A stretch of DNA of 64,000 nucleotides from a virus: positions 62,001 to 126,000 of IMG/VR virus record IMGVR_UViG_3300030838_000001. One strand, written 5' to 3'. Both the position numbers and the translations under genes were made by a program. Positions 19,554-64,000 of this stretch are shown in pieces; position 1 is the first letter of the stretch; the number at the start of each line of letters is the position of its first letter. The notes beneath the pieces were generated by a model. That model made no database searches. It was not told the DNA's origin and was given only the letters and a program-made list of their open reading frames with translations.

Positions 19554-22388
19554 ATGTCAACAAAAGTATTTGTAAGTCCTGGGGTTTATACATCAGAAAA
19601 AGACTTAACTTTTATTACACGTCAAGTAGGGGTAACTCAACTTGGTTTGGTGGGTGAGACTACAATCGGTCCAGCTTTCCAACCAATCTTCATTAGCAAC
19701 TACGGTGAATTCCAATCATTCTTTGGTGGCCTAAACGCTACTAAGGTTAAAGATACTGGTGCGCCTCAATATGAATTACCTTATATTGCCAAATCATATT
19801 TAACTCAAGCAAATCAATTATTCGTAACAAGAGTATTAGGTTTCTCAGGTTACTATGCTGGTAAAGCATGGGGTATTACTCTTGATGCCGCTGTAGATAC
19901 TACAACCGTTGCACCTACAGGTGGAAGTAACGTAGCAAACATCATAACATACTCAACAACATCTGCTGGAACAAGTACATTTACATCGGCTAGTCCTATT
20001 GTAACTGCGCTTTTAGCTGATAACTTGATACAAGACCAATTACAATACATTTCTTTATTGAATGTAGGTCAAACAGGTAGTGTTACAACAACATTTATTA
20101 AAACTGGAAACTCATTTACTGGTGCTTCATTCAACTATATCATTACCGCTACTGGTAGTACTGGTAGTACTTTAACAGGTGTTGCTTCAGGTGTAACTGT
20201 AACTTATTCAGGTACAGGTTATACAGATGTTGAAAACCAATTGGTTGCGTTATTACGTTCAAGAGGTACAACAGACTTAGCTACACAATTTCCAGCATTT
20301 GAGGTAACTGGTGCTACTGGTGTTATCTTCGACCCAGCATTTACTGATTCTGAAATGAATCCATTAGGAGATTTCTCTTTAAGTGGTTTCTCTCAAACTC
20401 AAGGTGCTTTTGATAACTTGGTATCTTTAGATAGAACTAAAAAGAATTACTTACCAAGAGTTCTTGGTAGAAGCGTTCAAAATGGTAATACACCATTATA
20501 CCTTGAAGAATTCTACAACAGTATGTTCGAAGAACTTGTTGCTGAAGGAAAAGTAAGAGGACTTAAACAAACAATCGTTAGTTATAATAATGAATTCTCT
20601 GATTACCAACAACAATACTCGCCAGCGGTTACACCTTATGTTGTATCTGAGTTACGTGGTACAAAGGTGTTGAAATTATTCAGATTCCATACAATTTCTG
20701 ATGGTAATGCGGCTAATGAGCAATTCAAAATCTCATTCGTTAACATTAAACCTGATACAAGAGAGTTTGACGTAATCATTAGAAGCTACTACGATAGTGA
20801 TGCTTCACCAACAGTATTAGAAAGCTTTAGCCGTTGTACAATGGACCCAAATTCTAATAACTATATTGGTAGAAGAATTGGTACACTTGATGGTTTATAT
20901 CCTTCTAAATCAACTTACGTTCTTATAGAAATGGATGATACATCTGATACAAGTGATGCATTCCCAGCTGGTTTCATTGGATTCCCAATTAGAGACTACC
21001 AAGAGAATAGCAACACAAGTGTTGTAGCTCCAAAATTAACATACAAAACTGCTTATGGTGCTTTTGAAAACAAACGTAAATTCTATTTAGGTTTATCTGA
21101 GACAATTGGTATTGATGCTGATTTCTTCGATTACAAAGGTGTACCACAAACAAATAATCCAAACGTTTGGACTGGAATGACTAACGGTTTCCACATGGAT
21201 ATCGATGCTACTGGTGCAACAATTGACAACGTTAACGTTGTTATAAATACTTCAGGTGGAACTTACTCTCCTATATTCTTATTCGACACAGGTGATGCTG
21301 AGTTTAGAACTGAATCAGGACTTGCTGGTGGACCATATGAAAAAATCTACGCTCGTAAATTTACATTCGCACCTTATGGTGGATTTGATGGATGGGATGT
21401 TTACAGAACTAGAAGAAGTAATCTTGATAGCTACATAATCAATGGTACCAACGGTGCTAACGGTTTAACTTCAGGTGCATTTAGTAACAAAGCTTTATCT
21501 AATGGAGACATGGGTATTACATCTGATTACTATGCGTTTTTAGAGGCTATTTGGACATTCAGAAACCCTGAAGCGATTAACATTAACGTGTTTGCTACAC
21601 CTGGGATTGATAATTTCGATAATACTAACTTAATTGAAGATACTATCGAGATGATTGAAGAAGAAAGAGCGGATTCACTTTACATCATGACAACACCTGA
21701 TTTAAACACTGGTGGAGATGTGATGAGTGTTGAAGATGTTACTGACTATTTAGATGGTATGTACGATAGTAACTATTCTTGTACATATTGGCCTTGGGTA
21801 CAAATCAACGATACTGAAAATAACGTGTTTATCTACGTTCCACCAACAAGAGATGTTGTAAGAAATATTGCCTTAACTGATAATGTTTCATTCCCTTGGT
21901 TTGCGGTTGCGGGTATTCAACGTGGTGATGTTGATGCGGTTCAAGCTAGAAAGAAATTAACACTTTCTGAAAGAGATGAATTGTATGAAAACAGAATTAA
22001 TCCGATTGCTACATTTACATCTGATGGTATCAAAATTTGGGGTAATAAAACACTTCAAGTTAGAGAATCTGCTCTTAATAGAATCAACGTAAGAAGACTT
22101 TTATTACAAGCAAGAAAACTTATCTCTGCTGTATCTATTAGATTGTTATTTGAACAAAATGATAACGTGGTTAGAAACCAATTCTTATCTATAGTTACTC
22201 CTATCTTGGATAACATTAGAAGCGAAAGAGGTTTAACAGATTTCCGTGTGGTTCTTTCAAACGACCCTGAAGATATCGACAGAAACCAATTAACTGGTCA
22301 AATATTCTTGAAACCAACAAGAGCCCTAGAATTTATTCAATTAGAGTTCGTAATCATGAATACAGGTGCTTCATTTGATAATGTATAA
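19554..22388 (+). CDS. Tail sheath protein, T4 gp18-like
   Basis: A 944-residue contractile-tail sheath subunit. The N-terminus VFVSPGVYTSEKDLTF followed by GLVGETTIGPAFQPIFI is the conserved opening of phage sheath proteins, and the C-terminal part has a conserved LYENRINPI-like segment and IFLKPTRALEFIQLEFV. It is longer than T4 gp18 (659); the additional residues (about 120-280, Ser/Thr/Gly-rich) look like an exposed insertion domain. The subunit polymerises around the tube (gp19-like, 22919) and contracts on infection. It is preceded by an ATATTTATA motif and followed by a strong terminator, so it may be a single-gene transcript. Confidence 0.9.
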   Translation: MSTKVFVSPGVYTSEKDLTFITRQVGVTQLGLVGETTIGPAFQPIFISNYGEFQSFFGGLNATKVKDTGAPQYELPYIAKSYLTQANQLFVTRVLGFSGYYAGKAWGITLDAAVDTTTVAPTGGSNVANIITYSTTSAGTSTFTSASPIVTALLADNLIQDQLQYISLLNVGQTGSVTTTFIKTGNSFTGASFNYIITATGSTGSTLTGVASGVTVTYSGTGYTDVENQLVALLRSRGTTDLATQFPAFEVTGATGVIFDPAFTDSEMNPLGDFSLSGFSQTQGAFDNLVSLDRTKKNYLPRVLGRSVQNGNTPLYLEEFYNSMFEELVAEGKVRGLKQTIVSYNNEFSDYQQQYSPAVTPYVVSELRGTKVLKLFRFHTISDGNAANEQFKISFVNIKPDTREFDVIIRSYYDSDASPTVLESFSRCTMDPNSNNYIGRRIGTLDGLYPSKSTYVLIEMDDTSDTSDAFPAGFIGFPIRDYQENSNTSVVAPKLTYKTAYGAFENKRKFYLGLSETIGIDADFFDYKGVPQTNNPNVWTGMTNGFHMDIDATGATIDNVNVVINTSGGTYSPIFLFDTGDAEFRTESGLAGGPYEKIYARKFTFAPYGGFDGWDVYRTRRSNLDSYIINGTNGANGLTSGAFSNKALSNGDMGITSDYYAFLEAIWTFRNPEAININVFATPGIDNFDNTNLIEDTIEMIEEERADSLYIMTTPDLNTGGDVMSVEDVTDYLDGMYDSNYSCTYWPWVQINDTENNVFIYVPPTRDVVRNIALTDNVSFPWFAVAGIQRGDVDAVQARKKLTLSERDELYENRINPIATFTSDGIKIWGNKTLQVRESALNRINVRRLLLQARKLISAVSIRLLFEQNDNVVRNQFLSIVTPILDNIRSERGLTDFRVVLSNDPEDIDRNQLTGQIFLKPTRALEFIQLEFVIMNTGASFDNV

Positions 22389-22455: not shown

Positions 22456-22857
22456 ATGTCAAAGTTAAAGATAACACAAAAACAATATGATGCAATTATT
22501 CTTCACGAGCAAAATTCTCGTAAGGAGTTGCTTAGTGAGAATATCAAAGATTTAACATTAACAATTGCTTTGTTGACTGGAATTAAATTAACTGGTCAAA
22601 ATGAGCATACTGTTAATAATTTAATCAAAGATAAAAAAAATATGCAAGAGATGAAATCTACTCTTGAAGATGAGAATAAGATGCAAGATTTGGTTGATGC
22701 TCTGACTGAAAAAGGTATGAAAGACCCCGAAGGTAGACTATCTAGAAATGCTGACAAGATTGTAGCTAAATTCAACGAGATTGCAGAAAAAGAGAAATTA
22801 AACTTAAAATTAGACTTTTTAACTTCTAATAATTTAAAAAATTTAACTGATAAGTAA
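22456..22857 (+). CDS. Hypothetical helical protein between sheath and tube genes
   Basis: A 133-residue charged, alpha-helical protein rich in Lys, Glu and Leu. It begins MSKLKITQKQYDAIILHEQN; the 492-residue protein encoded at 25542 has a related N-terminus (KLKITEAQYNRLL), so the two share a short module. There is no membrane segment or catalytic motif. Having its own terminator-motif junction upstream and another motif downstream, it seems to be expressed with the tail genes. It could be a minor tail component or an assembly factor. Confidence 0.6.
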   Translation: MSKLKITQKQYDAIILHEQNSRKELLSENIKDLTLTIALLTGIKLTGQNEHTVNNLIKDKKNMQEMKSTLEDENKMQDLVDALTEKGMKDPEGRLSRNADKIVAKFNEIAEKEKLNLKLDFLTSNNLKNLTDK

Positions 22858-22918: not shown

Positions 22919-23407
22919 ATGGCTGATTTATTGATGAAAATGCCCCTACCATACGAACCTAAGAAAAAGAATCGTTGGTTAATTACTTTCCCAGCAGACC
23001 TAGGAATCCAACAATGGTGGTTAGCTTCTGCTTCAAGACCTTCAATCACACAAAATGAGGTTGAAATTCCGTTCCTTAATACTTCTACATGGGTAATCGG
23101 TAGATTTACTTGGGAAGCTATTGATGTTACTTTCCGTGACCCAATAGGGCCATCTGCAACACAAGCTATCATGGAGTGGGTTCGTCTTCACTCTGAATCT
23201 ATCACAGGTCGTCAAGGTTATGCGGCAGGTTATAAAAGACCAGTTGAACTTGAGATGCTTGACCCAACAGGTGTAGTTATTGAAAAATGGCTTCTTGATG
23301 GAACGATGCTTACAAACGTTGGATTTGGTGACTTATCTATGGATGATGATGGTATCGCTGAGATTACAGCAACTCTTAGATTTGATAGAGCAATCTTATT
23401 ATTCTAA
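22919..23407 (+). CDS. Tail tube protein, T4 gp19-like
   Basis: A 162-residue protein, almost the size of T4 gp19 (163). Features typical of tube subunits are the N-terminal KKNRWLITFPAD, the aromatic pattern STWVIGRFTWEAIDVTFRDP, the central helix AIMEWVRLHSES, and ELEMLDPTGVVIEKWLLDG near the C-terminus. Subunits stack as hexameric rings inside the sheath to form the DNA channel. The gene is flanked by an ATATTTATT motif and a terminator, as would fit a highly expressed single-gene unit. The call is secure from sequence pattern and position after the sheath. Confidence 0.9.
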   Translation: MADLLMKMPLPYEPKKKNRWLITFPADLGIQQWWLASASRPSITQNEVEIPFLNTSTWVIGRFTWEAIDVTFRDPIGPSATQAIMEWVRLHSESITGRQGYAAGYKRPVELEMLDPTGVVIEKWLLDGTMLTNVGFGDLSMDDDGIAEITATLRFDRAILLF

Positions 23408-23944: not shown

Positions 23945-25210
23945 ATGGATAGAAAACCAAATGTTGTTCCAACAAAAGAACAAATAAATTCAGTTAAATC
24001 TGAAAAAGAAAAAAAAGAACTTTACGAACAAGAAAAAGCTCTAGCAACAAATGAAATCTACTCGGCTTCATTTAGAGAAGCTGAAATGCCGACAGGTCAA
24101 TTATCTGCCATTGAGCAAATGCAACAACGTACAGCACATCAATTAAATCTTAACGCACAAGGAATGCAAGTTAAAGATGAAACTTTAGCTGAAGCACCTA
24201 CTTATAGTGATGTCGCAAGATTTCGTAACGAAGAACAAATGAGACTTCGTGATGTGCAATTACAACAAAATCTAGATAATATACAAAAGTTTCAAGACCA
24301 AACCGCTGAGGCTACAGTAAGACACCAATCTTACCAAAATCAACAACAAAAACCAATCATGGAAATCGACAACGGATATCAAAAACCACCAACTCCACCT
24401 GTAACACCAAAAAACGGTAGCATTTGGGACGACTATTCTAACCAAAGTAGTGATGAACACATCAACGAAATTAGTCAACCAAACTATAACGCTCCTTTTG
24501 ATGTAATTTCATTACCATCGTTAGGAAAAACTTATAAAAATAAGAAATCTAACATCAAGTTAAGTTATATGACAACTGCTGATGAGAACATTCTTTCAAG
24601 TCCTAACTTATTACAAAGTGGTGAGTTTCTTGAGATTCTTATCAATAGAAAAATGCTTGAACCAAGCCTTAGATATAAGGATTTATTGCCTGGGGACAGG
24701 AACGCTATTATGATTTGGTTAAGAGCTACTGGTTACGGTGAAATGTACCCTGTTGTTATCGAAGATGAGAAAGGAATTCCATTTGAAACTGTTGTTAATT
24801 TAGATGACTTAAAAACGGTAGAATTAACGGTTGAGCCTGATGAAAATGGACTTTTCACGTTTGATTTACCATTAGCTAGACAAACCATCAAGTTCAGATT
24901 ATTAACTTGTGGTGAAATTGATTTCTTGGACAAGAAAATGGAAGAAGAAAAAGAGAATAACGTTTTAATTAACAATTATAATACTTACAAATTAGAGAGA
25001 ATGATTGTTGAAGTTGATGGGTCTAAGGATAGAACTTTTATTTCTAGCGTTGCTAACAATATGAGACTACCTGATTCAAAAAAACTAACGGAATTTATGA
25101 ACACAATTGATTGTGGGATTGACTTGGATATTGTTGTTAAGACTCCTGGGGGTGGGTCTGTAGCCACCTTTCTTCCACTTAACCTCAACTTTTTTTGGCC
25201 TAACCTCTAA
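23945..25210 (+). CDS. T4 gp26-like baseplate hub / tail assembly chaperone
   Basis: A 421-residue protein. Residues 1-170 are Gln-, Asn- and Glu-rich with low complexity. From about 185 the sequence follows the T4 gp26-type baseplate family: ISLPSLGKTY, TTADENILSSPNLLQSGEFL, LPGDRNAIMIWLRATGYGE, FDLPLARQTIKFRLLTCGE, ending FLPLNLNFFWPNL. In T4 gp26 takes part in hub assembly, and many phages keep a tail-assembly chaperone directly before the tape measure. The last codons cross a run of seven T residues (25190-25196), where reading can shift into the next frame, which stays open to 25475. The stop is TAA at 25208-25210. Confidence 0.65.
   Translation: MDRKPNVVPTKEQINSVKSEKEKKELYEQEKALATNEIYSASFREAEMPTGQLSAIEQMQQRTAHQLNLNAQGMQVKDETLAEAPTYSDVARFRNEEQMRLRDVQLQQNLDNIQKFQDQTAEATVRHQSYQNQQQKPIMEIDNGYQKPPTPPVTPKNGSIWDDYSNQSSDEHINEISQPNYNAPFDVISLPSLGKTYKNKKSNIKLSYMTTADENILSSPNLLQSGEFLEILINRKMLEPSLRYKDLLPGDRNAIMIWLRATGYGEMYPVVIEDEKGIPFETVVNLDDLKTVELTVEPDENGLFTFDLPLARQTIKFRLLTCGEIDFLDKKMEEEKENNVLINNYNTYKLERMIVEVDGSKDRTFISSVANNMRLPDSKKLTEFMNTIDCGIDLDIVVKTPGGGSVATFLPLNLNFFWPNL
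25190..25196 (+). other. Candidate slippery site (T7)
   Basis: The zero frame reads AAC TTT TTT TGG CCT. Slipping +1 or -2 on the T run gives TTT GGC CTA ACC, entering the open frame that ends at 25475. It is the only homopolymer run in the 25164-25210 window where a switch is possible. Confidence 0.5.
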
Positions 25211-25475
25211 TTATAAAGTTCCGTTACTAGAAGAAATTTATATTTGCACACAATATTTAAAAGGTTTTACGTATAATGATGTTTTAAGTATGCCTGTTTA
25301 TGAAAGAAGATTCTTTTTAGGGTTATTGAATAAAGAAAACTTTGAAAAACAGGAAAAAATTGAAGAAATGAAGGAGCAAAGTAAAACTACTGGCTCAAAA
25401 GGTACTAGAACAACCAAAATCAGCGGACAGAATCTTAAAAATAGGATGAACAACGGTGATTTACCATTATCATAA
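25191..25475 (+). CDS. Probable frameshift extension of the gp26-like chaperone
   Basis: The +1 frame relative to the gp26-like gene is open from 25164 to the TAA at 25473-25475. After a shift at TTTTTTT it reads GLTSNYKVPLLEEIYICTQY, then LKGFTYNDVLSMPVYERRFF and a charged helical tail. The only ATG in the frame (25290) lies inside this conserved-looking block, in SMPVYERR, and would delete its first half. The Y-x-D-V-x-x-M-P-x-x-E-R-R pattern is like the small proteins that follow tail chaperones in many contractile phages. Reading by +1 or -2 slippage would make a fused product. Translation from 25290 alone is the alternative. Confidence 0.5.
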   Translation, partial: FFGLTSNYKVPLLEEIYICTQYLKGFTYNDVLSMPVYERRFFLGLLNKENFEKQEKIEEMKEQSKTTGSKGTRTTKISGQNLKNRMNNGDLPLS

Positions 25476-25481
25476 CTAAAA

Positions 25482-25509
25482 ATGCCCGCAGAAATGTGGG
25501 TATTTTTTA
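25482..25509 (+). terminator. Terminator with GAAA tetraloop
   Basis: ATGCCCGCA and TGTGGGTAT pair over 9 bp (two G-T wobbles) around a GAAA loop, followed by six T residues. It ends the chaperone transcript 6 bp after the frameshift-frame stop. Confidence 0.8.
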
Positions 25510-25541: not shown

Positions 25542-27020
25542 ATGAATAATAAAAAACTTAAGATAACTGAAGCACAATACAATAGACTACTACAGTTTAT
25601 TGTTGAAACTCCTTTTGACACAATGGTTAAACAAAGTATCGATATAGGTGATGTTGTTTCTATTAATTGGAAAGGTAGTAAGAATAATTTCAAGGTAATT
25701 GATAATTCAGGTGGGCAAATCATTATGGATAACATCGATAAAGGTTCAACCAACATCAACAATAGATACTTCATGAGCTTTACATCGTTGAATGGTGATG
25801 ACCTAGAGATGAGAAAGGTAAACAAGGTTAAAGAACCTGAAAAACTTAACGATATCAAGTCATGGTCACCAGTAACTGTTAAAGATATTTCAAACATACA
25901 AATCTTCAGAGACGGTGAATTAATTGATACGGTTGACCCAGTTTCTCCTACTGCTGAAAAACAACAAAAAAATGGTCCAAAACCTGATACAAACACAGAT
26001 AATAACCCAAGTCCTGACTTCATGAATGAGGTTAATAACGACTTGGCTATTATTCTTGAACAATTGGAAAAAGGAAAAGGAATCAATTTTATATTTAATT
26101 CAGGGTTTATTAATTTCTGTTGCTTAGATAGAGTTGATTCTACATTTATCTTAGAAATTAATGAAGAACAAAATACAATCATCGATAGTCTTAATAAATG
26201 GGACACCTTCATTTTGGATATCAAGGGTAATCCTCAAACAGATAACCTATATCTTAAAAACAAAGACATTGTTTCAACTAATGATGGAGTAACTTATAAC
26301 CTTAAATTCAAGGTTTCAGCTGGAAATACACACAAAGAGACTGTTATAAAAGCAATCAAAGGTGTTAGTGTTTTGAGCTCTTGTGATACAACTGAAGAAG
26401 ATGAAGATGAGAAACCTGAAGTAAATGGCCCTGAAGAACAGAAAGCGGATGCTGAAAAGGCACTACAAATGATTCTTAAGGATAAAGATTTACAAGATGC
26501 GTTTTATAAACAACCTGGATTTTGGGAGATGTTTAAAGCTGAACTTTCAGGTGAAAAAGCTGTTGGTACTGGTATAATTACCGTATTAGACGTTATGCGT
26601 AAAGTAACTGAATCTAGACTTGTTAAAAAGGTAGGTAAAGGGTTTAATGTTGGTAAAAAAGCCAAGTTTATTCCTATTGAAAACGTTAACGTTAAGTATC
26701 GTGATGATAAAGATATAATCCATAATTATGACCTTCCAATGGTTGAAGATATGATTACGGTTAGAAGACACCTTATCGATGATGTTAGTCAAGTTTTACA
26801 AAAAAGAGTTGAGGGTGGAAATGGACTAATTCTAAGAATCCTAGTTAAAGACCAAACAGACGAACCAAATATCAAGAATTGTGATGTTCAGATTGGTATT
26901 AAAAATAAAAGCGATAAATTCGTTGAGAAGGGACAAACATCAGATGTTAACATAAAATTCTTAAATTCAGAAGGTTATGAAGCACAAGTTCAACAACCAC
27001 AAACACAAAATACTAACTAA
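25542..27020 (+). CDS. Hypothetical tail-region protein (492 residues)
   Basis: A 492-residue hydrophilic protein with no recognised domain. The N-terminus NNKKLKITEAQYNRLLQFIV shares the KLKIT-x-x-QY motif with the protein encoded at 22456. An acidic linker (TTEEDEDEKPEVNGPEEQ, about residues 285-305) separates an N-terminal mixed part from a C-terminal part with helices and strands, and the end is Gln-rich. It sits between the chaperone and the tape measure, and its stop overlaps the tape-measure start by one base (TAATG), so it is co-translated with it. A minor tail or tape-associated protein is likely; no better call can be supported. Confidence 0.6.
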   Translation: MNNKKLKITEAQYNRLLQFIVETPFDTMVKQSIDIGDVVSINWKGSKNNFKVIDNSGGQIIMDNIDKGSTNINNRYFMSFTSLNGDDLEMRKVNKVKEPEKLNDIKSWSPVTVKDISNIQIFRDGELIDTVDPVSPTAEKQQKNGPKPDTNTDNNPSPDFMNEVNNDLAIILEQLEKGKGINFIFNSGFINFCCLDRVDSTFILEINEEQNTIIDSLNKWDTFILDIKGNPQTDNLYLKNKDIVSTNDGVTYNLKFKVSAGNTHKETVIKAIKGVSVLSSCDTTEEDEDEKPEVNGPEEQKADAEKALQMILKDKDLQDAFYKQPGFWEMFKAELSGEKAVGTGIITVLDVMRKVTESRLVKKVGKGFNVGKKAKFIPIENVNVKYRDDKDIIHNYDLPMVEDMITVRRHLIDDVSQVLQKRVEGGNGLILRILVKDQTDEPNIKNCDVQIGIKNKSDKFVEKGQTSDVNIKFLNSEGYEAQVQQPQTQNTN

Positions 27021-29509
27021 TGGCAGATACATCAAATATGAGTCAAGACGAGTTAAATGCGCATAACAGATTAGTCGCAGAGGCTCTTAAACTCGCAAAA
27101 CAAGAAGCTAGATATAGAAAAGAAGTTAGCACCAGTCTTGCTGATTATTTAGCTGGTGTTGAGAAGGCAAATAAGATGAAAAAAACTTATAATGCCAACT
27201 TAAAAATTCAATCTAAATTTGAGAAAGAATTAGAAAAAGCACAGCAAGATAATGATGCTCAAGCTATTCTTAATGCTCAAGTTAAGCTAGACCTTATAAA
27301 GAAACAAAATAAAGAACTTAAGAAACAACAAGAAGCTCTAGAAGACGCTTTGGCAACTGTTAATAAGACTTCTATGGTTACTGCCAAGTTAGGTGCTGAA
27401 GCTTTAAAAGGTATCGCAAAGCTTGCAACAAACATCCCAGGTCTTATCACCAAGGGTTACGGTCAAATCAAGAGTGCTGGTTTATTCGATATGGATAAAG
27501 CCATTAAGCAATCAGGTTTAAGTATGGGTCTTTTATCTAAACAAACTAGTGATTATAGAGCTAATATTACTGCGGCCGCTAAAAGAACAACTACCTTTGG
27601 TATTGGAATTGAAGAACTTGCTCAAATGCAAGCTAGTTATTCTGAAGAATTAGGTAGAGCTGTTGTTTTAACTGAACAAGAAAGCGTTGCTATGGCTAAG
27701 ATTGCCGCTGATGCTCAATTGAGTACCGAAGCAATGGGTCAAATGACTGCTGAATTAGATAGACAAGGTGTTTCTGCTGAAAGAACTGCTGACTATATTC
27801 ACAAGGTTATGGAAGACACCCATAAAATGGGTCTTAATTCATCTAAGGTTATTAAGAATATCAATGCTAATTTCAAGATGCTTAATAGATATAACTTCAA
27901 AAATGGAGTTGATGGACTAGCTAAAATGGCCCAAACAGTATCTAAATTAGGTGTTTCTATGGAATTTGCCGCTGGTTTTGCAGATAAGTTATGGGATGTT
28001 GAAGGAGCTGTTGATATGTCTGCACAATTACAAGTATTAGGTGGTGAATGGTCTAAGTTAGCGGACCCATTCAAGCTTATGTATCAAGCTCGTAATGATA
28101 TTGAAGGATTGACTGAAGAATTAGGTAAAGCCGCATCGGCTTCTGCTCACTTGAATAAAAAAGGTGAAATAGAAATTGCCGCTGTTGAAATGCATAAATT
28201 AAAAATCATTGCTCAACAAACTGGTGTTGCATATGATGAGTTAGCTCAAGCTGGTAAAAATGCATTCAAGTTGAATAAGATTAAAGGTCAAGTTCAATTC
28301 CAAATGTCTGATGAAGAAAAAGAATTCCTTACAAATCAAGCTCACTTAGATAAAGACGGAAAAGCCTATATCGTAGTTAAAGGTGATAAGAAATTCCTTG
28401 GACAATTAGGAGCTAATGCTCAAAGTATTGTTAAGGCCCAAATGGAAGAACAAAAAGCTATGGGTGAAAGAGCTAAGGATGCTCAAACATTTGATGAGGC
28501 GTTGAATAATACAATCAACGGTATGAAGGTTTATTTGCTTCCAATCATTACAGCTATAAACGAAAAATTACTTCCTAAATTGAAAGATTTTGGTGATAGA
28601 TTCGAAAACGAAAAATGGGGTGATAAAATAGAGAAATTTGCTGGTATTGTTGGTGACTTGGTTACTACCATCGGTGGATTTATTATTGATAACCCAATCA
28701 AAACTGGTCTTATTTATCTTACAACTAAATTAGGTGGTTTCCTTATGGATAAAGCTACTTGGTTTAGTAATGGTCTTATACTTGCACAAGGATTTAACGC
28801 TGGGTCTGCTGGTGGTGGAGCCGCAAGTGCTGTAGCTGGTGGTGTCGGTAAATTTGCTAAGTTAGGTAAGTTTGCTAAGATTGGTGGTGGTGTAATTGCC
28901 GCTGGTGCTAGTGGATATGATGAATGGACAACCAATAAAGAAAATGGAGTTGAAGCTGGTGAAAACGCTGGCCGTACTGCTATTAGAGCAGGGGGTGCTG
29001 GTTTAGGAGCATGGGGTGGTGCGGCCGCAGGTGCCGCATTGGGTTCTGTTGTTCCAGTTATCGGTACAGTTGTTGGTGGGATTATTGGTGGTATCTTAGG
29101 TGGACTTGCTGGTGATAAACTAGGTGATATGGGTGGTGATGCCGCTTATGGTGTTCACGATGGTAAATTCCCTGCAATTGGTAAGAACTTAGGTAGCGAT
29201 TTTTCTCAAGGTAGAGGAATTATTCAAGGTGGAAAAATTACACCTATTGATAATAAAGATGACCTTATGGCAATGAAACGTGGTGGTCCAGTCGATAATG
29301 CGTTGAGAGATGGTGGTGGAAGTGTGAACACTACTAGAGTTGATTTTGGTTCTATTACAATCAATGGTGAAATCTTGATTAAATCTCCTGGAAGTCCAGG
29401 TATGTCTGAAGACCTTATGAAGGACCCTTCATTTAGACGTGATATCACAAGAACAATCCAAGTTGAATTAGAGAAAAATAAAATTGGTGGAAAAAATAAA
29501 GGTCAATAA
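27020..29509 (+). CDS. Tape measure protein
   Basis: An 829-residue protein with the build of a tape measure. It has a long helical, coiled-coil-prone N-terminal third (FEKELEKAQQDNDAQAILNA, LIKKQNKELKKQQEALEDAL), Ala-rich helices, and then a hydrophobic Gly/Ala-rich segment around residues 590-710 (GAAAGAALGSVVPVIGTVVG then GIIGGILGGLAG) that could cross a membrane during DNA ejection. It follows sheath, tube and the gp26-type chaperone, the standard place. Its length sets the tail length and would imply a tail longer than that of T4 if T4 gp29 (590 residues) is the counterpart. It contains two of the window's seven GCGGCCGC sites. Confidence 0.8.
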   Translation: MADTSNMSQDELNAHNRLVAEALKLAKQEARYRKEVSTSLADYLAGVEKANKMKKTYNANLKIQSKFEKELEKAQQDNDAQAILNAQVKLDLIKKQNKELKKQQEALEDALATVNKTSMVTAKLGAEALKGIAKLATNIPGLITKGYGQIKSAGLFDMDKAIKQSGLSMGLLSKQTSDYRANITAAAKRTTTFGIGIEELAQMQASYSEELGRAVVLTEQESVAMAKIAADAQLSTEAMGQMTAELDRQGVSAERTADYIHKVMEDTHKMGLNSSKVIKNINANFKMLNRYNFKNGVDGLAKMAQTVSKLGVSMEFAAGFADKLWDVEGAVDMSAQLQVLGGEWSKLADPFKLMYQARNDIEGLTEELGKAASASAHLNKKGEIEIAAVEMHKLKIIAQQTGVAYDELAQAGKNAFKLNKIKGQVQFQMSDEEKEFLTNQAHLDKDGKAYIVVKGDKKFLGQLGANAQSIVKAQMEEQKAMGERAKDAQTFDEALNNTINGMKVYLLPIITAINEKLLPKLKDFGDRFENEKWGDKIEKFAGIVGDLVTTIGGFIIDNPIKTGLIYLTTKLGGFLMDKATWFSNGLILAQGFNAGSAGGGAASAVAGGVGKFAKLGKFAKIGGGVIAAGASGYDEWTTNKENGVEAGENAGRTAIRAGGAGLGAWGGAAAGAALGSVVPVIGTVVGGIIGGILGGLAGDKLGDMGGDAAYGVHDGKFPAIGKNLGSDFSQGRGIIQGGKITPIDNKDDLMAMKRGGPVDNALRDGGGSVNTTRVDFGSITINGEILIKSPGSPGMSEDLMKDPSFRRDITRTIQVELEKNKIGGKNKGQ

Positions 29510-61690: not shown

Positions 61691-64000
61691 ATGAGTGATA
61701 AAAAAATAAAAGTAGCGGGGTATGCAAAGAAGGTTGTATATGACGGTAACATAGAATACAGAAATTTCAGTCCTGACCTAGTTGGTGTACAATTAGCTAG
61801 TAATGGTGGAACCCCTTTGTTTACAATGGGGAATTTTTCTATTACAACCAATCTTGACCCTAAAACCAATAAGTCTTTTATTACCAATAGTTTTTCAAAT
61901 TTTACGTCTCTTGATGACTTACAGTTAACACTTGACCAAACCAAGGCTCTTTTAACAAATAATGCTGGTGTAATTCTTAACTTGGATAAAACCAATCTTA
62001 AATACTACTCATTATTTGGTTCACTTACTGAGTTTGTTAGAGTTTCATTGGAAAATGTTATTACTACTTGGCCCGCTTCATTGTATATGTATTCAGTGAA
62101 TACTAATGCGGCAGGTACAACAATTACAAATAATACATTCGATAATTATACTTATGATAGTATTTCAGATACTTCTAGCTTTAGAGTTAATACAAATTCA
62201 ATCATAAACAGCTTTGATATCAATTACCTTTTAAACGGAACTATCCAAGATACTTTCAATGCATCAAATGATATAAGAAACTTAACAGTAAACTTTTATT
62301 CATATGCTGTATTATTTGAAGGTGTGGAATTTCCAGTAATTGGATATACTGGTTCAACTGATACCGTAAACGATTTTATCTATTTTGATATCAAAGGAAA
62401 CCCGTTTTCAGGACAACCAAACAATATAACTTATCACGTAAAGCCAAATAAGACGATTGAAGACACGTTCTTTAATACGTTGGATGATTTTACCTCTTAT
62501 CTATTAAATCGTCTTATAACACCTGTTTATACGGCTACATTCAGTTATCCAATCAAATCTGAAGATGGATTGATTCTTTATGTAGATAAATCAGTAACTT
62601 GGCCTGTAAGTGATGGTTATAACATTGATTTTGATTCAGGTGAGTATTTGTCGTATGCAACAGAATTATTTGAAATTGCAACAAATAATGACTTGTATAC
62701 AAGTAACCTTATGAATAGATTTCTTGTATCGGAATCTATTACATCATTTGATACACAACCTGTATTCCTTGCCGATGAGCATATGGATTCTTCAGGTCAA
62801 AAAATGAACAAGACTCTTAATCTTTATGGTCAAGAATTTGATGATATTAATAAGTTTATTACTGGTATTTCTTTTGCACATACAGTAACATATGATAAAT
62901 TGGATAACACACCTGATATCTACGTTAAAGATTTAGCGAGAGTAATGGGTTGGGACCTTATCTCAAGTGTTGTAGAAAACGATTTATTAGCGAATTATGT
63001 AAAAGCGTCAAAATCAACATATAGTGGTCAAACTGTTGGACTTACAGCAGTAGAAGCTGATGTTGAGCTATGGAGAAGACTTATTCTTAATTCACCTTGG
63101 ATTTGGAAATCTAAAGGAGCTAGAAAAACAGTTGAATTCTTATTGAAGTTCATTGGAACTCCGCAAGGACTAATCCAATTTAATGAATATGTTTATAAAG
63201 CAGATGGACCGATTGATATTGATTTCTTTACACAAGTTCTAGAATTAAATGGTCTTGATACTGATTTGACATTATATTCATTGGATTCAAATGGTTATCC
63301 AAGATTTCAAACAGATACTGATGATATGTACTTCCAAAATGATGGTCTTTGGTACCGTGAAACTGGTGGTGCTGACTCAGTGGTTGATATCCTTACTGGA
63401 AATAACCCACACGTTGGGCCTTATGATGGTGGATATAAATACATCAATCAATTAAGAACACTTATACCTAATTTTTCAGCGGTAACGATTACTGGTGAAA
63501 CAATTACTAGTGGAACAACAAATCTATTTACAAATTATCTATTAGGTGATATAACTAACTATACAGGAGCTACTTACGTTGATGTAATAAATGATGATGG
63601 AAGCGAAATAAATTCTACACTTGTTGTAGTATCAAGTATTATTGATGACCCAAGACCAACTGTAGAACAAACACCTTGTGGTTGTATTCCAGCTAGTGCT
63701 GATGACGCTTTGAGTATCTGTGTTAAAACAGTTGAACCAACAATTGCATTACCTTGTAGTAGTCTTGCTAATCAACCAACGAAAGATAATGAAAATGGTT
63801 ATTATGTGTTCCAAAAATACCAATATAACCAAGATGGTAGTATTTATTCAGTTAATGGAAATCCTGTTTTAACAAATGGATTATTCATTGACAGAGAGTG
63901 TTGTACTGCGTTGAACGGTGCTCCAAGTTATTCAGACTATGTTAACCCTACAAATAGCGAAGTATCAAGTGGTTATGCATGTTGTCATGGTAATAATTGT
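61691..64000 (+). CDS. Baseplate protein with gpI-like segment (3' end outside window)
   Basis: Open from the ATG at 61691 to the window end, 770 codons so far, starting MSDKKIKVAGYAKKVVYDGN. Around residues 390-510, FDDINKFITGISFAHTVTYD, ARVMGWDLISSV, ELWRRLILNSPWIWKSKGAR and KTVEFLLKFIGTPQGLIQFN resemble P2 gpI-type tail proteins (R-x-L-I-x-x-S, K-G-T/A-x-x-x-I/V-x-x-L-L-x-x-I/F-G), the fold also found within T4 gp7. The later visible part is Cys-containing and beta-rich (CGCIPASADD, ECCTAL, CCHGNNC). It is probably the wedge gp7-like or gpI-like component. The C-terminus is not seen. Confidence 0.6.
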   Translation, partial: MSDKKIKVAGYAKKVVYDGNIEYRNFSPDLVGVQLASNGGTPLFTMGNFSITTNLDPKTNKSFITNSFSNFTSLDDLQLTLDQTKALLTNNAGVILNLDKTNLKYYSLFGSLTEFVRVSLENVITTWPASLYMYSVNTNAAGTTITNNTFDNYTYDSISDTSSFRVNTNSIINSFDINYLLNGTIQDTFNASNDIRNLTVNFYSYAVLFEGVEFPVIGYTGSTDTVNDFIYFDIKGNPFSGQPNNITYHVKPNKTIEDTFFNTLDDFTSYLLNRLITPVYTATFSYPIKSEDGLILYVDKSVTWPVSDGYNIDFDSGEYLSYATELFEIATNNDLYTSNLMNRFLVSESITSFDTQPVFLADEHMDSSGQKMNKTLNLYGQEFDDINKFITGISFAHTVTYDKLDNTPDIYVKDLARVMGWDLISSVVENDLLANYVKASKSTYSGQTVGLTAVEADVELWRRLILNSPWIWKSKGARKTVEFLLKFIGTPQGLIQFNEYVYKADGPIDIDFFTQVLELNGLDTDLTLYSLDSNGYPRFQTDTDDMYFQNDGLWYRETGGADSVVDILTGNNPHVGPYDGGYKYINQLRTLIPNFSAVTITGETITSGTTNLFTNYLLGDITNYTGATYVDVINDDGSEINSTLVVVSSIIDDPRPTVEQTPCGCIPASADDALSICVKTVEPTIALPCSSLANQPTKDNENGYYVFQKYQYNQDGSIYSVNGNPVLTNGLFIDRECCTALNGAPSYSDYVNPTNSEVSSGYACCHGNNC

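Follow-up and report, generated by a model that had tools for sequence, protein, structure and literature searches.

The window, a stretch of 64,000 nucleotides (nt) covering positions 62,001 to 126,000 of the IMG/VR record IMGVR_UViG_3300030838_000001, is part of a 274-kb virus record and contains a gp26-like chaperone gene whose 3' end is overlapped by a second open reading frame (ORF) in the +1 frame. The chaperone gene is single-copy in the record and sits between the tail tube gene and the tape measure gene, as for the G/GT type, with one ORF intervening (Table 1). The gp26-like ORF ends just after a run of seven T (T7, 25190-25196), its product having the C-terminus ...LNLNFFWPNL. In the +1 frame the first ATG lies at 25290, and no ATG, GTG or TTG is found 5' of it in the window. 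The initial annotation had described the end of the gene and the extent of the +1 frame in the same way, and both were recovered from the window sequence. It had also placed the two frames immediately before the tape measure; they do lie upstream of it, but a 492-residue ORF stands between.

Table 1. Coordinates of the chaperone locus and of neighbouring tail genes in the window (aa, amino acids; TAC, tail assembly chaperone)
Feature	Position	Strand	Remarks
Tail sheath	19554-22388		
Tail tube	22919-23407		
gp26-like ORF, predicted short chaperone TAC-N	23945-25210	+	0-frame product, 421 aa; domain 24482-25207 matches phrog_150 (E 3.7e-9)
RNA hairpin S1	25140-25159	+	25140-25145 pairs with 25154-25159; loop CUGGGGGU
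S1 loop G-tract	25148-25152	+	may form a pseudoknot helix, as its 5' strand, with 25172-25176; hypothesis only
+1 frame ORF, stop to stop	25164-25475	+	post-shift part 25197-25475 = predicted TAC-C, 92 aa
Conserved TTTCTTCC element	25169-25176	+	13 nt 5' of T7; exact in 84/86 distinct protein-found clade loci
Slip site TTTTTTTGGCC	25190-25200	+	invariant in 76/76 readable protein-found loci; once in window
Slip-site codons	P-site UUU 25193-25195; 0-frame A-site UGG 25196-25198; +1 codon GGC 25197-25199	+	putative tRNA step
0-frame stop TAA, end of short product	25208-25210	+	stop 18-30 nt past T7 start in 80/80 loci
Terminator-like hairpin 3' of TAC-C	25478-25507	+	13 pairs, -16 kcal/mol, z -4.9, then T tract
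ORF between chaperone locus and tape measure	25542-27020		492 aa
Tape measure	27020-29509		

A protein search with the upstream ORF yielded 80 loci, three of which are cut off before the site, and 76 of which are readable. The remaining one, L075, carries a stop in the upstream ORF within the homologous stretch, and its arrangement could not be read. In all 76 readable loci the run is exactly T7, a homologous downstream ORF lies in the +1 frame, and no more than 30 nt separate the stop of the gp26-like ORF from the invariant TTTTTTTGGCC. A motif scan enlarged the set to 120 distinct and 80 non-redundant loci; because this 80-locus set was chosen by motif, the invariance of the motif letters is cited from the protein-found sets only. 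RNA and frame positions are numbered from the first T of T7. No stop interrupts the +1 frame up to +156 in any of the 80 non-redundant loci, while each other frame is open over that stretch in none of them. In the same set, variability 5' of T7 is highest at the third base of the 0 frame (1.41 bits vs 0.96 and 0.49), and 3' of T7 it is highest at the third base of the +1 frame (1.36 vs 0.79 and 0.63). Judged by this wobble variability, which is direct comparative evidence, the coding frame switches at T7, and the comparison establishes two conserved frames together with the slip site. TTTTTTTGGCC occurs once in the window, against 0.05 occurrences expected by shuffling. Since T7 runs alone are common in the window (14 on the + strand), the evidential weight rests on conservation.

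By its sequence relationships the product is a TAC of the T4 gp26/gp51 family, consisting of TAC-N and TAC-C. The unshifted window domain matched phrog_150 with 37.4 bits (profile 8-219), and the shifted product matched it with 45.8 bits (profile 9-280 of 282); neither protein matched phrog_150 at its full length (421 and 509 aa), and only this equal-start comparison is meaningful. T4 gp26 and gp51 are both in PF12322 and phrog_150, gp51 being about 48 residues longer. Because the shifted product extends the phrog_150 match to position 280 of 282, the +1 segment falls in the alignment at the position of the gp51 extension. PF12322 reached 21.4 bits on the window, under its cut-off of 24.5, and it matched 27 of the 34 fused relatives with E no higher than 0.01. 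Direct comparison of TAC-C with the gp51 C-terminus of T4, by hidden Markov model and by hhalign, was not significant and is suggestive only, and a PDB sequence search found no relatives. TAC-C also shows a weak, sub-cut-off similarity to DUF6760 (PF20546, E 0.007-0.07), a possible lead to the function of that family.

Based on these observations, we suggest that a programmed +1 frameshift producing a short and a long TAC is, very probably, the best explanation of the locus. The programmed shift proposed in the initial annotation is supported by the conservation of both frames and the slip site, by the wobble switch and by the lack of a conserved start. We infer its occurrence, its minority rate, the tRNA step and the roles of the chaperones and of the hairpin as follows. 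Ribosomes on the gp26-like gene would reach UUU_UUU_UGG_CC, where most would continue for four codons and stop, releasing TAC-N. A minority would slip +1, the P-site tRNA-Phe re-pairing from UUU to the overlapping UUU and GGC entering the A site, and would translate about 92 codons more to give TAC-NC, a fused product of 509 aa with the junction ...LNLNFF-GLTSNYK.... As in lambda gpG/gpGT, binding of the tape measure protein would fall to the N part and recruitment of the tail tube protein to the C part. An RNA hairpin 31-50 nt 5' of the slip site, perhaps with a pseudoknot reaching to 13 nt before the run, would probably refold behind the ribosome and favour forward movement.

The RNA upstream of the slip site was examined in the window clade, where conservation at the nucleotide level covers GGRGGTGGGTC (-42..-32), TTTCTTCC (-21..-14), TTA (-11..-9) and T7GGCCT. 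Third-base choices in the conserved 5' stretch run against the phage's own codon usage: GGT makes up 64% of its Gly codons, yet codon -42..-40 has A or G as its last base throughout; GGG makes up 6%, yet is dominant at -36..-34. A pairwise covariation scan revealed a 6-bp stem, S1, between -50..-45 and -36..-31. Across the 80 loci, 92.3% of cells are paired vs 26-59% for slid partners, with 28 double-change cells vs at most 10 and a covariation score of 0.271 vs at most 0.122, which was reached in 0 of 500 shuffles. Shuffle tests are inflated by sequence relatedness, and the weight for S1 is carried by the slide control and by separate compensations, clear cases being L194 (AGGUUC/GAACCU) and L084 (GGUCUC/GAGACC); on these comparative grounds the hairpin is established. 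The TTTCTTCC element varies in L215, with pairing retained. Pairing of the loop GGRGG with CUUCC could give an H-type pseudoknot ending 13 nt 5' of T7, and this end would lie just outside a ribosome with its P site on the second UUU. Pairing in this helix extends to 97% of cells, but certain slid versions do equally well, and the pseudoknot is for that reason a hypothesis only. No useful consensus was obtained from the alignment with RNAalifold, Rfam gave only a sub-threshold match, and a search for 3' structure downstream to +155 found none that was supported.

A conserved base-paired structure 5' of the slip site is present in the sister +1 lineage as well as in the window clade. The sister lineage (TTT_TTT_CGN) was represented by 85 non-redundant loci, mostly selected for GGGG plus the slip site and not for the 5' strand. 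CCCC (-47..-44) pairs with GGGG (-9..-6), with an inner hairpin at -32..-26/-18..-12; 83.7% of cells are paired vs 37-60% for slid versions, and there are 83 double-change cells vs at most 53. The 3' strand of this structure comes to a few nt from the slip site, near the geometry at which synthetic upstream hairpins act. An intermediate +1 lineage of few sequences (L217, L218, L221) lacks TTTCTTCC and has other possible upstream stems, such as AGGGAC/GUCCCU in L221.

Several points weigh against the mechanism described above. The 30 nt that separate S1 from the slip site exceed the distance in the tested synthetic hairpins, and L080 lacks S1 and part of the TTTCTTCC element, yet retains the slip site. 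In addition, codon supply does not favour the shift, as UGG is not rare in the phage and GGC is its rarest Gly codon. The distance of 30 nt also fits a hairpin that is real but serves something else, such as control of chaperone expression or protein binding, and has no effect on the shift. We regard this other role as a real possibility, though somewhat less likely than not, because upstream hairpins stimulate +1 shifting in yeast and in a 70S system (PMC3639245, PMC6321510) and the sister lineage has an independent 5' structure directly adjoining its slip site. That S1 stimulates the shift appears to us plausible and somewhat likely on the comparative data. No precedent was found for a 6-bp 5' hairpin with compensatory changes or for the 5' structure of the sister lineage.

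The direction of the shift was then compared among distant relatives, using a broader search together with cultured phages, which gave 87 loci with a C-domain detected by the TAC-C profile. The C-domain lies in the +1 frame in 85 of these and in the -1 frame in two (LR756511 and, weakly, Atu_ph07, E 0.004); all nine loci from bacterial assemblies, which are probably phage contigs, are +1. The main slip sites are TTT_TTT_TGG_CC and TTT_TTT_CGN_CC, and variants are TTC_TTT_CGG (L229, L230), TTC_TTT_CGT (Streptococcus phage GXN1), TTT_CTT_TGG (Flavobacterium phage immuto) and TTT_TTT_AGT (Listeria phage LIS04). The initial annotation had held that loss of T7 without loss of the frame would speak against a shift. 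The run is kept in the 76 readable loci; it is lost in distant relatives, but there the second frame is still shifted, mostly +1 on another +1-compatible site.

These variant sites bear on how the frames are joined, for which the initial annotation had left a +1 and a -2 slip side by side. Ribosomal slippage by -2 on T7 would give the same fusion with one extra Phe (FFF-GL); the P-site UUU re-pairs perfectly at -2 on T7, and -2 slippage has been reported for phage Mu gpGT (PMC3498833), but the TTC_TTT_CGG, TTC_TTT_CGT and TTT_CTT_TGG of the relatives would mispair at -2 and re-pair at +1. RNA polymerase slippage on T7, by which some mRNA would be one U shorter and the frames fused with no ribosomal slip, agrees with the homopolymer run at the junction in the window clade; against it, homologues shift at sites with no run longer than three, and neither the nucleotide-level conservation nor the upstream hairpin would be expected. 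Since distant relatives shift +1 on TTC_TTT_C, TTT_CTT_T and TTT_TTT_C, we favour +1 ribosomal slippage. Both alternatives seem unlikely in phages with the TTC_TTT or TTT_CTT forms and, by homology, less likely in the window phage, for which we consider each of them quite improbable.

In a jumbo branch (121Q, GAP32, PA5oct, Phosso, Atu_ph07 and Vibrio 2.275) the C-domain lies in the -1 frame on TTTTTTC, and the 595-kb LR756511 has the same chaperone C-domain, also in the -1 frame. The C-domain of the -1 branch is homologous to that of the +1 loci (hhalign 96%, E 2e-9). A downstream ORF in -1, as in X_XXY_YYZ frameshifting, is found in the 121Q-type branch, whereas it is in +1 in 76 of the 76 readable loci. 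At -1 loci (L204, L205, L288-L292) the C-domain is annotated as a separate gene or not at all.

Annotators of Mel-JY01 and immuto list TAC-C as an ORF of its own, as would suit a separate gene initiated inside the +1 frame. An independent start before the conserved block, named in the initial annotation as evidence contrary to a shift, is not conserved across the 80 loci: 44 have GTG or TTG only, which could serve such a gene, and 5 have ATG, but 31 have none of the three. Furthermore, the window itself lacks any candidate before ATG 25290, and the constraint on the +1 frame starts at the slip site; we judge a separate gene highly improbable. A one-base sequencing error (one base lost from the T run would fuse the frames) or a decayed gene is refuted by conservation, the same arrangement being shared by over 100 distinct contigs and by genomes of cultured phages, and is practically negligible.

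Xu in 2004 is said to have treated lambda gpG/gpGT and other frameshifted TACs, and Vladimirov in 2022 (cited in PMC12846349 and PMC10885494) reportedly identified the TAC genes of T4-like phages, with frameshifting in some T4-like groups and the use of genes 26 and 51 in T4. Frameshifted lambda gpG/gpGT have been reviewed, and T4 was in 2016 still listed as the exception among long-tailed phages (PMC5009743); poly-T -1 sites have been described in T4-like TAC genes (PMC12846349). A slip in a T4-like phage is less unusual than the initial annotation had thought, frameshifted TACs in such phages being already published. Like lambda G/GT, the window locus has overlapping ORFs 5' of the tape measure and would make a short and a long product of one gene by a shift near its 3' end; unlike lambda-type TACs, which are usually -1, the shift would be +1 at Phe codons preceded by RNA structure. 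The protein family (PF12322, phrog_150) is that of T4-like TACs, but T4 has separate genes 26 and 51, and the poly-T sites (PMC12846349; 121Q-type branch) are -1, while the window clade is +1. At the proven +1 site UCC_UUU_CGU of influenza A PA-X (PMC3498833) a P-site Phe UUU likewise slips +1, and the sister lineage uses UUU_CGN; gene and host are unrelated, however, and the site in the window reads UUU_UGG. Synthetic upstream refolding hairpins, which stimulate +1 in yeast and on 70S in vitro, share the position of the RNA structure 5' of the slip site, but they abut the E site, whereas the window hairpin, known from comparative evidence, leaves a gap of 30 nt, which the pseudoknot, should it form, would reduce to 13 nt. 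TAC frameshifting as a class is known; what is new, as far as our searches reach, is a +1 variant in T4-like phages that carries conserved 5' RNA structures. The long chaperone form is apparently reached by +1 or -1 in sister phages, a natural series for the evolution of recoding, and should the 5' structures act as stimulators, they would represent a natural equivalent, in hosts with weak Shine-Dalgarno (SD) pairing, of the synthetic upstream hairpins that have so far been tried in constructs. In many phage annotations the long protein is absent, or its end part is entered as a hypothetical gene of its own.

An excess of SD motifs is not seen at the gene starts of the window (2.5% vs 3.5% shuffled), and their leaders are A-rich, as in Bacteroidota, which points to a Bacteroidota host; the gene starts of the sister lineage are similar. 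No tRNA genes were found in the window. The shift would resemble that of prfB as +1 P-site slippage on a bacterial-type ribosome, but unlike the SD-stimulated prfB type, the window clade has no SD-like stretch near the slip site (none within 14 nt 5' of it in nine window-clade loci). Bacteroidia ribosomes are described as largely ignoring the SD (PMC9976891), and the 5' structure might replace it in Bacteroidota phages. This idea is weakened because the SD-driven +1 shift is often retained in Bacteroidia prfB genes (PMC8710568). We propose tentatively, at not quite an even chance, that phages of SD-poor hosts evolved +1 signals driven from behind, namely a hairpin or possible pseudoknot in the window clade and a two-helix stem in the sister lineage, either of which would refold once the ribosome has passed and move it forward by one base.

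Directly 3' of TAC-C, the transcription unit may end at the terminator-like hairpin. Finally, the ORFs at 22465 and 25557, which are otherwise different, have a similar N-terminal peptide, KLKIT(Q/E)xQY, within their first residues.
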